Assembly (NCBI GenBank): GCA_004017275.1
Contig: SAKE01000002.1
Span: 189,411 to 253,410 of the forward strand
DNA length: 64,000 bases
Reading direction: 5' to 3'
From: Mesorhizobium sp.
GTDB lineage: Bacteria; Pseudomonadota; Alphaproteobacteria; Rhizobiales; Rhizobiaceae
Shown here: piece by piece, positions 41,867 to 48,055 of the stretch
Numbering within the stretch: position 1 is the stretch's first letter
How the letters are laid out: each line of letters opens with the position of its first letter
Position numbers and translations under genes: made by a program
The notes under the pieces: model-generated
Database searches by the model: none
The model's input: the letters and a program-made list of their open reading frames with translations, nothing else
What the model was told of the DNA's origin: nothing

Positions 41867-42879
41867 GCGTGGCCGGGGAACAGGACCAGCGCGGCGGTAT
41901 CAATTTCGCGCGGCTTTTGATGAGTTTCGGGCCGCTGCTGTTCCTGGTGGCGCTGATCGTCGTCTTCACGGTGCTGAAGCCGAGCTTCATGGACCCGATC
42001 AATCTGTTCAACATCACAAGGCAGATCTCGATCACCGGGCTGATCGCGCTCGGCATGACCTTCGTCATCCTCACCGCCGGCATCGATCTGTCGGTCGGCT
42101 CGCTGCTTGCCTTTTGCGGCATGGTCGCCGCCGTGGTGGCCAAGGGCGGCACGGCCAACACGCTGTCGCTGTCGACCTCCGGCACGCAAGGTTTTGGCTG
42201 GTTCGCCGCCCTGCTCGCCGCCGTCGTGGTGGGTGCGGGCGCCGGCTGTGTGCAGGGGCTTGTCATCACCCGGCTGAAAGTGCCGCCCTTCGTCGTCACG
42301 CTGGGCGGGCTGACGGTGTTTCGCGGGCTGACGCTGACCATCTCCAATGGCGGCCCGATCTCGGGCTTCGACGCCTCGATGCGCTGGTTCGGCACAGGGT
42401 TGATCGGCCCGGTGCCGGTGCCGGCGCTCATCTTCGCGGCGGCCGCCATCCTGTGCCACATCGTGCTGCGCTACACGCGCTACGGCCGCGCCGTCTATGC
42501 CGTCGGCGGCAATGCCGAAGCGGCGCGGCTGTCGGGCCTGCGCGTCGATCGCATCCTGGTTTCCGTCTACGTCATCGTTGGCTTCTTCGCCGGCCTCGCT
42601 GCCTTCGTGCTGTCGGCAAGGCTCAATTCATCGGAAGCGGTGGCCGGCATCGGCTACGAGCTGACGGTGATTTCGGCCGTCGTCATCGGCGGCACCTCGC
42701 TGTTCGGCGGCATCGGCTCGGTCGGCGGCACGGTGGTGGGCGCAGCGCTCATCGGCGTGCTGCAGAACGGGCTGCAGTTCAACAACGTGTCGTCCTACAC
42801 GCAAAGCATCGTCATCGGGCTCATCCTGATCCTGGCGGTGGCGTTCGACCGGTGGCTGAAGTCGCGGGTAAGACGGTGA
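41863..42879 (+). CDS. CUT2 sugar ABC permease (RbsC type)
   Basis: 338 residues, eight to ten membrane spans, with the family blocks LIALGMTFVILTAGIDLSVGS and AVYAVGGNAEAARLSG. ATGA overlap with the ATPase gene. A typical one-permease CUT2 importer is thus complete (binding protein, ATPase, permease); no kinase, isomerase or regulator is linked. Confidence 0.93.
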   Translation: MSVAGEQDQRGGINFARLLMSFGPLLFLVALIVVFTVLKPSFMDPINLFNITRQISITGLIALGMTFVILTAGIDLSVGSLLAFCGMVAAVVAKGGTANTLSLSTSGTQGFGWFAALLAAVVVGAGAGCVQGLVITRLKVPPFVVTLGGLTVFRGLTLTISNGGPISGFDASMRWFGTGLIGPVPVPALIFAAAAILCHIVLRYTRYGRAVYAVGGNAEAARLSGLRVDRILVSVYVIVGFFAGLAAFVLSARLNSSEAVAGIGYELTVISAVVIGGTSLFGGIGSVGGTVVGAALIGVLQNGLQFNNVSSYTQSIVIGLILILAVAFDRWLKSRVRR

Positions 42880-42904
42880 GGGCAAAGGGGGCTGTTAGCG
42901 CCCG

Positions 42905-43064
42905 TACGCCCCCCTCTGTCCTGCCGGACATCTCCCCCTCAAGGGGGGAGATCAGCAGCTTCGTCCTCGCTACTTTCTCTTCAACGTTGAAATTGGCGAA
43001 AGTAATCATGACATCCAATCTCCCCCCGTGTGGGGGAGATGTCCGGCAGGACAGAGGGGGGCGC
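42905..43064. repeat. 160-bp palindromic element after the importer
   Basis: Same outer arms as the element at 40.1 kb: CCCCCCTCTGTCCTGCCGG on the left and the reverse of it on the right, each with a CTCCCCC hairpin. Inner 60 bases differ. Two copies thus bracket the ATPase-permease gene pair. Confidence 0.85.
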
Positions 43065-43146
43065 CTCGCTCTGCCATCGACAGACCCCATCCCATTCCTT
43101 GCAAAACAATCATGCTTTGCTAGAAAGACGTGGGGCGGGTGGCATC

Positions 43147-44457
43147 GTGAGAGACCTCATGTTTGCCGACATCATCAGACCGATCAGCTTGAGTTTTTCG
43201 CTGCTGCTGCGGTTCTGGCCGCAGCTTGTCGCGCTGGTCTTGGCCGGCGTGCTGGTCGGCGATCTCCTGATGCAGCTGGCGGCGAAAGTGGCGCTTGCCA
43301 ATCATTTTGCCGGGCTGGCCATGCTGACGCTGGTGGCGCTGGCGCAGCTGGTGGTGACGGTGGCGATGTTCCATGTGCTGCGCCCCGGCCTGCCGCATGT
43401 GCTTGCCGCGCAACGCGCCGCCGACAAGGCCGCAACCATTGAGGCGCGAACGGAGCCGGGCGCAGCAGTGAACCGGCGCGGCTCGCGGCTGGTGCGGATG
43501 ATCACCATCGCGCTGCTGCCGTTCTTCGCCTATTACGCTGCCTGGGGATTCCTCGGCGACATCGTGCGGCAATATTCGCGCGCCACGCTCGACCAGGCCG
43601 ATTTCGGCCAGAGCGCTGATGTGCTCGACGTGCTCGATTCACGCTGGCTGCTGGTCTCGGTGGCGGTGTCGTGGCTGATCCGCCGGCTGGCCAAGCTCAT
43701 GCAGACCAAAACGAAAGCCGCCTCGTTCTGGCAGATCGTCGTGGTGATCTGCGAGACCAACTGGATCTTCGTCGGTCTCTATGTGATCAGCCGCTGGAAG
43801 GACTCGGCGCTGCAATGGCTGATGAGCCGGAATTTCTGGTCGGCCCTGCAGGCGTCGGCCGACGGGCTGGCGAGCCCTGTGCCGATGGCCTCGGCCGCAC
43901 CGATGGTGCCGGTCGAGATCACTTCGATCGCGCCGTCGACAATCGCGATCAACCTGTTCTTCTACATGCTGCTGCCGCTGATCTGGCTGGTGATGGCGGC
44001 GCTGATCTACGGCTATGACGTGCGCGACGATGCCGCCCTGATGCGCGTGCACGGCCGGCTGGAGCGCGCCGGCCAGCGCTATGCCGGCCTGCCGAAATTC
44101 CTGCGCGATTTCGTCGAGCATTTCATCGCCGGCTACCGCTCGCGCTACCTGCCGATCGCCAACGGCGTGCGGCTGACGGTGAGCTCCAGCCTCGTGCTCT
44201 TGTGCACGCTGGTCGTCGGCTACCGCCTGCTCGACTGGGGCGCTGCGTGGCTATGGCTGGGTGCGACGCGGCTGATCGGCCCGCACGAGCTCGATATCTG
44301 GCAGATTTTTTCGCACGGCGTGACGTTGCTGTTCGGCAGCCCATTCCAGGATTCTTCCACAGGCATCCTGATCGAGCCGCTGCGCATATGCTTTCTCGCC
44401 GCGGTGCTGGAGACTGCGTTTTCGATGGCGAAGGGGGCGGGTGGGGTTGGTGGCTGA
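43147..44457 (+). CDS. Polytopic membrane protein of unknown function
   Basis: About 436 residues, not recognised. Hydrophobic segments suggest eight or nine spans in three groups (FSLLLRFWPQLVALVLAGVL; MITIALLPFFAYYAAWGFLG; IWLVMAALIYGYDV and later), separated by soluble loops including RVHGRLERAGQRYAGLPKFL. The start is uncertain: GTG 43147 has GGGGCGGG upstream, ATG 43159 has only GAGAG. Its stop faces the end of a three-gene operon of other unknown membrane-anchored proteins across a 197-bp repeat, an association that may be functional. Confidence 0.75.
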   Translation: MRDLMFADIIRPISLSFSLLLRFWPQLVALVLAGVLVGDLLMQLAAKVALANHFAGLAMLTLVALAQLVVTVAMFHVLRPGLPHVLAAQRAADKAATIEARTEPGAAVNRRGSRLVRMITIALLPFFAYYAAWGFLGDIVRQYSRATLDQADFGQSADVLDVLDSRWLLVSVAVSWLIRRLAKLMQTKTKAASFWQIVVVICETNWIFVGLYVISRWKDSALQWLMSRNFWSALQASADGLASPVPMASAAPMVPVEITSIAPSTIAINLFFYMLLPLIWLVMAALIYGYDVRDDAALMRVHGRLERAGQRYAGLPKFLRDFVEHFIAGYRSRYLPIANGVRLTVSSSLVLLCTLVVGYRLLDWGAAWLWLGATRLIGPHELDIWQIFSHGVTLLFGSPFQDSSTGILIEPLRICFLAAVLETAFSMAKGAGGVGG

Positions 44458-44469
44458 ATAGCTGGCGCC

Positions 44470-44635
44470 GGTTCCTCGCCCCCACGGATGTGGGGGAGAG
44501 GTGGCTCGGCGAAGCCGAGACGGAGAGGGGGAATGGCTCGGCCTCAAGTGAATTCAGAGCGAACCCGCCGGCGTCGCAGCCCCCTCTCCGACCGCTTCGC
44601 GGCCACCTCTCCCCCGCTTTGCGGGGCGAGGAACC
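44470..44635. repeat. Palindromic intergenic element between convergent genes
   Basis: GGTTCCTCGCCCCC and GGGGCGAGGAACC ends are inverted; inner GGGGGAGAGGTGGC and GCCACCTCTCCCCC likewise, with CTCGGCGAAGCCGAG as a small hairpin. Probably acts as a bidirectional transcript end. Confidence 0.85.
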
Positions 44636-44654
44636 CAAGCCCTGAGAGGAAGGC

Positions 44655-45233
44655 CTATTTCGGCGGCCTCTGAAAACGCAAATACCACGGCCGCTCGCTG
44701 CCTAGCCCGACCGCCGGGCGGATGGTCTTGACGGCGTCCTCGGGCACGATGAAGGTCTCGCCGACGGTGATGACATCGCCCTTTTTGGCGCCGGAGAAGA
44801 TCGCCGAAGTGCAGTTCATCACGCCATCGGGCAGGCTGACGCCGGAGATGAAGTCGGGCAGCCAGCGGCGGCCGGCGACGTCGGTCAGCATCACCTTGCA
44901 GCCCAGCCACTGTTTTTGCAGATCGGGGTCGCGAACCGTGACGGAAAAGGTGGCGATGACGGCGAAGGCATGCTCTGGCAAGCGCCCGGCCTTGCCGCCG
45001 CGCAGGTCGGCCAGCCGCCAGTCGCTGCCGCCGAACGGCACGGACTGGCCGAAATCGACATCCATGGCGATGAGGTCCTCGCCATGCAGCCATTCGCGGA
45101 CGCTGTCATACCCGATCTCGGCCAGCGTCAGCGGCAGCAGAATGGCGAGTGCGACAAGACTGCGCCGTCGCCATTTCTTCTCAGCCTGCCGGTCATAGCC
45201 GGTGGGTTCGATGTCGGTCGAAACTGCGGTCAT
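44655..45233 (-). CDS. Membrane-anchored protein, unknown (third gene of trio)
   Basis: 192 residues, not recognised. A basic cytosolic head (QAEKKWRRRS) is followed by one transmembrane helix (about residues 27-42, LVALAILLPLTLAEIG) and an extracytoplasmic domain of alternating beta-like segments (AFAVIATFSVTVRDPDLQKQ, DVITVGETFIVP). It overlaps the preceding gene by four bases. The predicted Ig-like or DUF4352-like shape is inferred from strand pattern only. Confidence 0.7.
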   Translation of the reverse strand: MTAVSTDIEPTGYDRQAEKKWRRRSLVALAILLPLTLAEIGYDSVREWLHGEDLIAMDVDFGQSVPFGGSDWRLADLRGGKAGRLPEHAFAVIATFSVTVRDPDLQKQWLGCKVMLTDVAGRRWLPDFISGVSLPDGVMNCTSAIFSGAKKGDVITVGETFIVPEDAVKTIRPAVGLGSERPWYLRFQRPPK

Positions 45234-45823
45234 GTCTTTCCTTGCGCCGGGCCGTCGAGATCGTATTCCGGCAAGACATCCGCCGGCTGGCCATCGGCGC
45301 CGGTCGCCAATGTATCAAGGCGAATGCGGGCCTGGGCGTCGAGCGGGCCGAACCGGCGTTCGGCGATCAGCAGGCTGGCGCCGCGGATCTGGTCTTGCGG
45401 CACCTCGAAGACGAACAGTCCGCGTTTATCGAGACCCGGATCGACGGCATGCGGCGGCATGTCCTGGCGATAGCTGAGCCGCTCCGTCTGGCGGTAGCGC
45501 AGGCCGGTCGGGCCTTGCCAAATGCCGTCGGCGACCGCGGTGGAGGTGCTGGTGGCGGTGAGATTGGTCGTCACCACCGCCCACAGGCCGCTGGTGGTCA
45601 ACAGCTTCTCCTGGCCGAACTGTTCGGTCTTCAGCGTGCGGGCGAAGACCACTCTGTCGAGGCGGACATCGAAGCTGCGCGCCCGCATCGTGTCATGCAT
45701 GGCGCCGTCGAGCGGGATCGGCGCGGTCAGCTCGGCATAATGCGGCTTAGAGACCTGCATGCCGTAGCTGAGCGCCACGGTCGTGCAAAGGATCAGGAGA
45801 TTGCCGATGGCCCGGATCTTCAT
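45230..45823 (-). CDS. Membrane-anchored protein, unknown (second gene of trio)
   Basis: 197 residues. N-terminal signal or anchor helix (AIGNLLILCTTVALSYGM), then a beta-rich domain with SFDVRLDRVVFARTLKTEQFG and LLTTSGLWAVVTTNLTATSTST. The pattern of a consequent strand such as GLFVFEVPQDQIRGASLLIAE resembles proteins with a DUF4352-type immunoglobulin fold. Four-base overlaps on both sides (ATGA) make one translational unit with its neighbours. Confidence 0.7.
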   Translation of the reverse strand: MKIRAIGNLLILCTTVALSYGMQVSKPHYAELTAPIPLDGAMHDTMRARSFDVRLDRVVFARTLKTEQFGQEKLLTTSGLWAVVTTNLTATSTSTAVADGIWQGPTGLRYRQTERLSYRQDMPPHAVDPGLDKRGLFVFEVPQDQIRGASLLIAERRFGPLDAQARIRLDTLATGADGQPADVLPEYDLDGPAQGKT

Positions 45824-46401
45824 GAGCCGCTCTTTGATAGGTCGGCGACCGGCAAGGCGACGGTGCCGAGCCGGTAGGGGTTGAACCAGCCGGGCGTGCC
45901 ATAGAGATTGTCGCGCGGCTTGAAGATTTCGGCGGTGACGCCGAAGCGGAGATTTGCCGGCACGGCGGCATCGCCGGCAAGCGGCCAGACATAGGCCATG
46001 CGCTCGGTCATGCCGGGATGCAGTTCCGGCGTCAGCGTGGAATCGCGTGCCAGCGCGACCATCGGCATGGGGTCAGGCAAGATAAGCCCGTCCGGCTTGA
46101 AGACATTGAAATAGGCCTTGTCGGATTGCGCCGTGCGATTGGTCAGGTCGACCTCCAGCACCAGCGCCTTCTGGCCTGGTTTCAACGGCACGCCATAGAC
46201 CTTGGCGCGGCTGACATAAGCGCGCACCGGCTGGACGCGCCAACGCCCGGCATCGATGGCGGCGCCGGGCGGCAATTGCGGCGGGGCGTGCGCGGGCAGG
46301 GCGCCGAAGGCCCCCATCAGGCCGGCGACGAACAGGGCGGCAATGGTTCCCGCGCCGGCCGTTATCCAGGTTTGAAGTCTTGAGCGGGCAGTCTTGAACA
46401 T
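45820..46401 (-). CDS. Secreted or anchored protein, unknown (first gene of trio)
   Basis: 193 residues. N-terminal helix (ITAGAGTIAALFVAGLMGAFGAL) with a cleavage-like PAHAP, then AIDAGRWRVQPVRAYVSRAKVYG and KALVLEVDLTNRTAQSDKAYFNVF, which again suggests a DUF4352-like beta sandwich. It opens the trio. Nothing identifies its partner; the convergent polytopic protein is the only obvious candidate. Confidence 0.7.
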   Translation of the reverse strand: MFKTARSRLQTWITAGAGTIAALFVAGLMGAFGALPAHAPPQLPPGAAIDAGRWRVQPVRAYVSRAKVYGVPLKPGQKALVLEVDLTNRTAQSDKAYFNVFKPDGLILPDPMPMVALARDSTLTPELHPGMTERMAYVWPLAGDAAVPANLRFGVTAEIFKPRDNLYGTPGWFNPYRLGTVALPVADLSKSGS

Positions 46402-46550
46402 TCCAAACTATGCACGTCGAACGATCAGCCACCCCACGCGCAGTTTAGAAAGAAAAGATGGCCGATGGAACCCGCAAATGGCTGGTCCAGGCCACCGTCA
46501 CCAGCGCCGACGCGCGCCCGGCCCTTCGTAAGCTGAGGGCGTTCCGAAGC

Positions 46551-46600
46551 TCGAAAGGCCAAGCAATTGGCTTGTCGGTCGCTACGCGATCCGCTTCTCA
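46551..46600. repeat. CCAAGCAATTGG element, copy 1
   Basis: CGAAAGGCCAAGCAATTGGCTTGTC followed by GGTCGCTACGCGATCCGCTTCTCA. Related copies at 51086-51130 and 52379-52422 carry the same order: A/T palindrome, then a CG-rich palindrome, then CCGCTTXTCA. It contains the stop codon of the next gene. Confidence 0.7.
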
Positions 46601-46956
46601 CCTTCGCGCACCCAGAGAAGGTAGCCGTAGCGGCGGAAGAAGCGCGCCAGCAGGCGCTGCTGCTTGGCTCTGATCAAATCGGGCAGGCGCCGCTCCTGGC
46701 GCCAGCGCGGCATGTTGCGCCAGCAGGCGATGAGACGGACGGCATCCGCGATGGCTTCCTCCGCCGACAGCGCCGGGCCGATCGCGGCCAGGAACAGCGC
46801 CTGGGACGGTTTCAACTCGTCGATCACCGCCTTGCGCCTGATATGATCATGGCGCGCGTGAGCGATGCCGTTGCTGCGGATGGCTTCGAAGGCTTCGAGG
46901 AGGGCAGGGCTGTCGCCAGTGTAACCGCAGGCGCGGGCGAAATCGGCGGCGTCCAT
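46582..46956 (-). CDS. Hypothetical basic protein
   Basis: 124 residues, not recognised. Helical pattern DAADFARACGYTGDSPALLEAFEAIRSNG and a very basic C-terminal half (WRNMPRWRQERRLPDLIRAKQQRL then FFRRYGYLLW). GGGAG lies five bases before ATG 46956. It is divergent from the CxxC gene at 47142 and has the 16-bp shared element 59 bases upstream, oriented towards it. Confidence 0.6.
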   Translation of the reverse strand: MDAADFARACGYTGDSPALLEAFEAIRSNGIAHARHDHIRRKAVIDELKPSQALFLAAIGPALSAEEAIADAVRLIACWRNMPRWRQERRLPDLIRAKQQRLLARFFRRYGYLLWVREGEKRIA

Positions 46957-47014
46957 CGTCACTCCCAGGCTCGATGTGGCAGCGGTTCAAATCCCGACTC
47001 ACATTTGCGAGTTA

Positions 47015-47456: not shown

Positions 47457-47768
47457 TCAGGAGGCGTCGTCTTCATCGTCGAGGATGACGTGCCGCCCGC
47501 CGTTAAAGACTCGAAGGATCGTCACCGTCTTGTCTTTGATGGTGAATGCGATCGTCGCCCGCCTGCGATAGCCCACGGTGCGGAGGCCTGGCCTGATATC
47601 ATCGTGGCGCGTCCCGCGCTCAGGAAAAGTGTCAAAGTCCGAACAGTAATCGATGAGGCGATCGACATAGGCTCGTGCAATTCGTTCGCCGGCCTGTGGA
47701 ACCAGATAGATTAGCAAATCGAGCAGGTCTTTCTCTGCAGCGTTGCTGAAGACGACCCTGTGCTTCAT
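47457..47768 (-). CDS. parE: ParE/RelE-superfamily toxin
   Basis: 103 residues: HRVVFSNAAEKDLLDLLIYLVPQAGERIARAYVDRL then GTRHDDIRPGLRTVGYRRRATIAFTI and VTILRVFNGGRHV, the common ParE/RelE fold with the C-terminal strand ending in ILRVFHGGRD-like sequence. It poisons gyrase or ribosome-bound mRNA in relatives; which is not clear. Four-base overlap with the antitoxin gene. Confidence 0.92.
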   Translation of the reverse strand: MKHRVVFSNAAEKDLLDLLIYLVPQAGERIARAYVDRLIDYCSDFDTFPERGTRHDDIRPGLRTVGYRRRATIAFTIKDKTVTILRVFNGGRHVILDDEDDAS

Positions 47769-48055
47769 GCTTGGCGTGAACGCTTACCCGCCAGTGCGTC
47801 AATGCGGTTGTGAAGTCGCTTGCGCACGTCCTCGAGAGGCGAGACGAGCGAAGGATCCTTCTGGAGCGCATCCATCGTTGGCGCAACTTCTTCCCGCAAC
47901 CAGCGATCGACCGCTGCATCGCGTGCGGCGAGAGTTCTCAAGCCATCGCGGATGACTTCGCTTTCAGTGGCGTACTCGCCGGATGAAACCTTGTCCTTCA
48001 CCATCTGAGCCATCTCAAGCGGCAAGGTAATGGTCAGTGGCTGGGTGCTGCGCAT
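47765..48055 (-). CDS. parD: ParD/CopG-type antitoxin
   Basis: 96 residues. The ribbon-helix-helix part is LTITLPLEMAQMVKDKVSSGEYATESEVIRDGLRTL; the C-terminal half binds the ParE-like toxin. First gene of the pair, with a perfect palindrome 23 bases upstream. It should autorepress. Confidence 0.92.
   Translation of the reverse strand: MRSTQPLTITLPLEMAQMVKDKVSSGEYATESEVIRDGLRTLAARDAAVDRWLREEVAPTMDALQKDPSLVSPLEDVRKRLHNRIDALAGKRSRQA

Follow-up and report, generated by a model that had tools for sequence, protein, structure and literature searches.

Four adjacent genes of a Mesorhizobium sp. genome, one for a polytopic membrane protein (POLY) and three for anchored proteins of similar length (T1, T2 and T3, here called the trio), raise the question of whether they form a single membrane system. 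They lie in a stretch of 64,000 nucleotides (GenBank assembly GCA_004017275.1, contig SAKE01000002.1, positions 189,411 to 253,410 of the forward strand), which we call the window and in whose coordinates positions are given. A preliminary description of this DNA had proposed a complex built of three related subunits facing a membrane protein that it could not assign. We find that POLY, T1, T2 and T3 are one co-inherited unit. We further consider it moderately probable (roughly 0.6) that POLY and three periplasmic immunoglobulin-like (Ig-like) subunits make up one accessory inner-membrane complex, inherited and exchanged as a unit and most likely moving or gating a substrate. The module is laid out as follows.

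43147–44457, forward strand: POLY, polytopic membrane protein with eight predicted spans, 436 residues from a GTG start
44458–44654, no strand: gap of 197 bp that separates the POLY stop from the T3 stop, most of it taken by an inverted-repeat element (44462–44650)
44655–45233, reverse strand: T3, third trio gene, N-terminal anchor and predicted Ig-like beta-sandwich, 192 residues
45230–45823, reverse strand: T2, second trio gene, N-terminal anchor and domain, 197 residues
45820–46401, reverse strand: T1, first trio gene, N-terminal anchor and domain, 193 residues

The trio and POLY occur in the same genomes

Because synteny within one genus may be mere inertia, we searched 397 genomes of the order with profiles built from Mesorhizobium sequences only. 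T2 and POLY were each found in 14 genomes, and these are the identical 14, spread over eight genera and five families; in every one of them the two genes are adjacent on one contig and lie on opposite strands. If genomes were independent, which they are not, chance would make two sets of 14 among 397 identical about once in 10^25. An all-frame search recovered all four genes in 13 of the 13 fetched loci of the order, the window being the fourteenth, and no gap between them exceeds 217 bases. T1 and T2 share four bases in 12 of these 13 loci and one base in the remaining one. The T2–T3 junction ranges from a 50-base overlap to a 9-base gap, with starts chosen by rule and the T3 start unsure, and the stops of T3 and POLY lie −53 to +217 bases apart, such that the 3′ ends overlap in five of the 13.

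Within a sample of 99 Mesorhizobium genomes, where fragments were counted, POLY was present in 45, T2 in 42 and T3 in 45. The preliminary description had put forward co-occurrence of the trio and the polytopic gene as a check, and the two were indeed found together, both in the 14 genomes of the order and in 42 of the 42 T2 carriers of this genus. Three genomes have POLY and no T2 (G1107, G1112 and G1149), and in these POLY is fragmentary, covering 52, 67 and 207 model positions; G1112 and G1149 retain remnants of both halves, POLY and trio, together. T3 occurs without POLY in one genome, as a 28-position scrap (G1168), and POLY without T3 in one, as a 52-position fragment at a contig end. Among the 53 loci that carry all four genes at more than 85% coverage, the four proteins show closely correlated pairwise distances (r 0.96–0.98).

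All four genes are under purifying selection. In comparisons of the window with nine Mesorhizobium relatives, the ratio of nonsynonymous to synonymous substitution rates (dN/dS) was 0.10–0.21 for POLY, 0.23–0.36 for T1, 0.16–0.40 for T2 and 0.09–0.23 for T3, well below 1 in all nine.

The module exists in two layouts

In the window the trio is read in the order T1>T2>T3 and stands tail-to-tail with POLY; the three leftward genes of 192–197 residues with ATGA overlaps that had been described at the outset match the open reading frames (ORFs) in both coordinates and junctions. This convergent arrangement is one of two. The 42 Mesorhizobium genomes with T2 comprise 28 convergent loci, 13 co-directional loci and one that is split over contigs (G1162). 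On the Shinella plasmid WSD5-1, the order is POLY>T1>T2>T3 in a single direction, and the POLY stop and T1 start share ATGA; on a second Shinella plasmid, WSC3-e, the strands of POLY and T2 are as in WSD5-1. A clade of Mesorhizobium is also co-directional. Eleven of its 13 loci were measured for overlap, the two outside the measurement being G1124, with a split POLY, and G1159, and in 11 of 11 measured loci with intact POLY the ATG of T1 begins seven bases before the last base of the POLY stop. In all, the T1 ATG overlaps the POLY stop in 12 of the 12 measured co-directional loci with intact POLY, and we read the co-directional layout as a putative four-gene operon with overlapping frames.

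A tree of POLY was built from loci with more than 90% model coverage, from which 17 duplicates of 82 were removed to leave 65 sequences. Its rows comprise 52 convergent loci, 12 co-directional loci and one in which the halves are separate, and the co-directional label requires two changes on it. The trio has therefore probably been inverted relative to POLY twice, in separate branches, the Shinella row being a long branch. This rearrangement into a tightly overlapping operon is, in our view, the strongest argument for a joint function of the four products.

In the split case, G1162 (L118 and L119), POLY and the trio lie on different contigs and are both whole. On its outer side, each half still has the flank seen in a convergent relative, as though the two stops had been parted by a large element or a rearrangement.

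The trio proteins are related and are predicted to be anchored ectodomains

Hydropathy averaged over 51, 56 and 52 aligned sequences of T1, T2 and T3, respectively, places a single N-terminal span in each protein, in agreement with the anchors first proposed, and the N-terminal side of this span is richer in K and R. The bias predicts a periplasmic location for the trio domains, and two invariant cysteines of T3 (C112 and C141, 40 sequences) are consistent with export outside the cytoplasm. T1 carries a K-x-x-D-N-L-Y motif in which K161, D164 and L166 are invariant and N165 and Y167 are kept in at least 90% of 41 sequences; W172 is also invariant.

We compared the three families as profiles, using the same numbers of sequences after near-identical rows and those with less than 85% coverage had been dropped, and set each score against 40 shuffles. 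T1 and T2 match over 153 columns with an E value of 2.1e-6 and a score of 45.3 (highest shuffle, 20.9). T1 and T3 match over 87 columns in the N-terminal half, which includes the anchor, with an E value of 2.3e-4 and a score of 32.8 (highest shuffle, 19.0). With 15 sequences each, the same comparison had been weak (probabilities of 17, 0.3 and 5.8%), and relatedness rests on the deeper set. Thus, of the proposal that the three subunits are related, T1–T2 stands, T1–T3 stands more weakly and a T2–T3 relation was not directly detected.

The fold was approached by modelling T3 from 27 sequences, which gave a long N-terminal helix followed by a beta-sandwich (predicted local distance difference test (pLDDT), 89.1). 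Foldseek returned four matches at E ≤ 0.001, with E values from 1.3e-6 to 6.7e-4: YxkC, a sandwich protein of C. difficile, a protein of B. anthracis and MPT63. By VIA, the highest Z scores were those of YxkC (13.3), YjhA (11.1), 4les (9.8), MPT63 (9.6), YcdA (8.7) and 5bxg (8.2), whereas vertebrate Ig domains reached at most 7.4; in the superposition on YxkC, T3 residues 56–190 align over 124 residues with a root-mean-square deviation of 2.5. The predicted fold of T3 is thus the Ig-like sandwich of YxkC, YjhA and MPT63. We take YxkC (9a4z), YjhA (3cfu), MPT63 (1lmi), 4les and 5bxg to fall together under the name DUF4352/MPT63.

Sequence matches to DUF4352 (PF11611) are sparse. At E 0.1, and below the Pfam threshold, the domain appears in three of 41 T1 members (best E 0.00011) and seven of 41 T2 members (best E 0.0021); it is absent from the families listed for 40 T3 members, and the T1, T2 and T3 of the window have no match at E 1 and do not reach the Pfam cut-off. 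According to PMC4520260, DUF4352 adopts an immunoglobulin fold. The shared strand-rich fold suggested earlier is borne out for T3 by its model, and weak DUF4352 matches in relatives hint at it for T1 and T2. The simplest reading is that a single anchored Ig-like ectodomain was copied and diverged into T1, T2 and T3, with the fold modelled for T3 and T1 and T2 linked to it by profile.

POLY is a predicted eight-span protein without a convincing family

Hydropathy averaged over 36 sequences gives POLY eight spans, which favors the lower number of the earlier estimate of eight or nine. An alternative ATG start at 43159 would yield a protein of 432 residues, and conservation begins there. Five charged residues are kept in at least 97% of the 36 sequences (R137, R175, E418, D317 and R329), near spans 3, 4 and 8 and the loop before span 7. 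Five part-versus-part profile comparisons within POLY revealed no internal repeat, as none scored above its 20 shuffles. The structural model is poor (pLDDT 61.7): Foldseek found no match at E ≤ 0.001, the best VIA Z score was 5.2 and both lists consist of unrelated helical proteins.

Searches of Pfam and NCBIfam with the window proteins gave nothing significant, the best match being DUF6406 in T3 (E 0.045), and neither Pfam searches with all the alignments, a further NCBIfam search with POLY nor searches of PDB sequences gave anything convincing. DUF6406, DUF1612, DUF5067, 2OG-Fe_Oxy_2, FliO, MASE1, ApaG and others were set aside, as they appeared in one or two members only or with E values above 0.01. 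MASE4 (PF17158) matched one of 15 POLY members (E 0.0011); the other 14, including the window protein, had no match at E 0.1. PADLOC returned no family at E 0.1 for the eight proteins submitted, the four of the window and four relatives of POLY. The lack of an assignment to known families noted in the preliminary description therefore withstood Pfam, NCBIfam and PADLOC. A search of the open-licence literature, which takes in few subscription journals, returned no account of the POLY family, of the four-gene unit or of its two layouts; the fold of the trio domain is already known.

The module is patchy and travels on plasmids

In a plasmid collection, POLY occurs in 41 records (E 1e-5), of which 40 also carry T2 (E 1e-3); the remaining one, from S. 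garamanticum, holds a 61-residue POLY remnant. A few genera dominate these records (18 from Sinorhizobium and nine from Ensifer), and the carriers include the megaplasmids S. medicae pSMED02 and S. meliloti Ak57 pSymB. Where the module genes are annotated at all, the plasmid records label them ‘hypothetical protein’. T1 is found in 38 plasmid records, one of which, from Paracoccus yeei, lies outside the POLY set. On that plasmid (L151:764–2426), T1 is split, T2 is whole and T3 breaks off at position 148 of 197, next to an IS6-family transposase; POLY was not found in the two fetched stretches. The copy on a plasmid of Rhizobium sp. CC-CFT758 is broken in several genes.

Beyond its own family, POLY was found neither in a sample of the class (one of 385 genomes, its own) nor in one of the phylum (six of 398, all from its own family), and outside the order the module was met only on Paracoccus plasmids. 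Viral contigs yielded no confirmed relative. On the POLY tree, the Mesorhizobium copy in G1182 groups with Paracoccus plasmid copies, long branches being involved, and those in G1132, G1165 and G1183 group with a set that holds Ensifer plasmid copies. These groupings suggest that the module may have been transferred between families.

Loss can be followed at the site that the module occupies in the window. Close relatives of the locus are 15 loci of Mesorhizobium, and in those with enough flank the gene order is the same, with the module between a sugar ATP-binding cassette (ABC) operon and S126, a small conserved gene of 126 residues at 46582–46962 that has no Pfam or NCBIfam match. S126 is carried by 11 of the 21 POLY-negative Mesorhizobium genomes searched. 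Eight of these 11 loci were fetched, and in six the distance from S126 to this sugar operon is 110 to 4,152 bases and none of the module genes was found. In G1121, all but two bases of the equivalent of 43155–46381 are gone, and T1 keeps its first 20 bases; a single deletion removed POLY and the trio jointly. The module is thus patchy and accessory, and it is carried on both chromosomes and plasmids.

A proposed inner-membrane complex and its alternatives

We propose that POLY would be the core of the complex, with its eight spans placing both of its ends on the same side of the membrane. T1, T2 and T3, as copies of one ancestor, would stand beside it and form a periplasmic collar of DUF4352/MPT63-type domains, and the overlapping reading frames would keep subunit amounts balanced. 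Something would be moved or gated across the inner membrane, and the Ig-like domains would receive or occlude this substrate on the periplasmic side. The whole would be an accessory envelope device that comes and goes with plasmids and with segments of the chromosome. Conserved eight-span cores without enzyme or signalling domains are most often conduits, which is why we favor transport or gating; the patchy spread on plasmids agrees with an accessory role in the envelope. The physical complex, the periplasmic location, the coupled translation and transport are all inferred.

Several observations weigh against this proposal. Nothing directly indicates a substrate, and POLY (pLDDT 61.7) and T3 were each modelled only as single proteins. 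Profile similarity between T2 and T3 is at noise (score of 15.4, against 23.3 for the highest shuffle). For several of the co-directional T1 genes, other start codons further upstream are possible, and the whole but separate halves in G1162 show that adjacency is not needed. G1124 and G1141 have POLY split over two frames beside a whole trio, G1128 and a plasmid of S. medicae ml29 have a whole POLY with a split T2, and a plasmid of Sinorhizobium sp. K101 has a whole POLY with a split T1, although sequencing error is possible in each of these cases. Finally, the distance correlation could follow from shared history alone, and co-inheritance also fits travel as one cassette.

Four alternatives deserve consideration, the first two of which we judge unlikely to a similar degree. 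In an envelope-sensing relay, the anchored Ig-like domains would bind a periplasmic or cell-wall ligand and alter POLY, which would signal inward. Three divergent ectodomains could mean three ligands, and MASE4 is an integral-membrane sensor domain; however, its weak match is confined to a single member and missing from the POLY of the window, neither the flanks in the order nor the annotated plasmid loci have a kinase, cyclase or regulator as a constant neighbor, and the stretches that precede the anchors are short. Alternatively, the Ig-like domains could bind and control a periplasmic enzyme of the cell wall or envelope, with POLY as their platform. YxkC, the best structural match of T3 (Z 13.3), would be the precedent, as the title of entry 9a4z pairs it with DacA. 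A common fold shows no function, however; the main texts of the papers that we guess to be the source of 9a4z name neither YxkC nor DacA, and no family accompanies the module at a constant place.

An anti-phage or conjugation-exclusion device, whose ectodomains would block the entry of foreign DNA at the inner membrane, seems to us slightly less plausible still. Patchiness, carriage on plasmids (41 records), apparent transfer between families and repeated decay are typical of such genes, but the eight proteins submitted to PADLOC gave no match, a search of viral contigs found no relative and the annotated neighbors of the plasmid loci include no known defence gene except for one toxin–antitoxin pair. 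Least credible is that the halves are two independent, adjoining transcription units that merely travel together: although convergence precludes a single operon in 52 of 65 tree rows and single broken genes occur beside a whole other half, POLY and trio are jointly present in all 14 of the 397 genomes, were apparently rearranged into one overlapping operon in two branches and are left together as remnants in G1112 and G1149, and the only trio found without POLY, that of the Paracoccus yeei plasmid, has a split T1 and a shortened T3.

Comparison with known systems

The trio most resembles DUF4352/MPT63-type Ig-like proteins, in the predicted domain fold of T3 and in the weak DUF4352 matches of some T1 and T2 members, although the window proteins fall below the Pfam threshold. 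Unlike those proteins, the module has its domain on a predicted transmembrane anchor, in three divergent copies per operon that are tied to the multi-span POLY. DUF4352 is itself a domain of unknown function; here, a DUF4352-like domain has a dedicated multi-span partner, which could be used to learn its role. POLY shares with MASE4 that it is a multi-span membrane protein, but 14 of 15 members, including that of the window, do not match that family at E 0.1. A polytopic core with single-span subunits whose domain lies outside the membrane is also the plan of inner-membrane transporters that have several subunits and periplasmic accessory domains. In contrast to them, no ATPase or other subunit for energy coupling accompanies the module at a constant place, and POLY has no convincing transporter match by sequence or by its poor model.

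It is possible, and we suggest it only tentatively, that the module is an undescribed class of membrane machine in which a new eight-span family is obligately partnered with three duplicated and diverged Ig-like ectodomain subunits, as a self-contained cassette that travels on the chromosomes and (mega)plasmids of rhizobia and paracocci. If so, the machine would endow the envelope with a trait that no known family provides, be it transport, exclusion or barrier control. Four ‘hypothetical protein’ genes present in 45 of 99 Mesorhizobium genomes, fragments counted, become one co-inherited unit, the function of which can be tested by a single four-gene deletion or transfer.

Flanking elements and neighboring genes

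In the flanks of the 13 loci of the order, no other family was found at a constant place among ORFs of at least 80 residues; the most widespread one occurs in six of 13, at varying distances. S126 and the sugar ABC operon were rejected as parts of the module, as they adjoin it only at same-site relatives and persist without it; S126 was present in five of the 33 loci searched. In Shinella zoogloeoides (L078:9035–10962), an ABC permease/ATPase pair lies immediately upstream of T1 in the same direction. We rejected an ABC transporter as a partner of the module, as this pair recurs at no constant place elsewhere.

No sigma-70-like promoter was found in 42850–46700. Two GC-rich inverted-repeat intergenic elements flank POLY, at 42907–43064 and 44462–44650; the latter fills the gap between POLY and T3 in the window and so accounts for its width, and partial matches are found at other sites in Mesorhizobium loci. 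A gene pair at 47457–48055, presumably ParD/ParE-like, adjoins the module site and is patchy, occurring in one of 15 close loci (L008) and, among further Mesorhizobium loci, in L120 and L129, the last with the second gene only.

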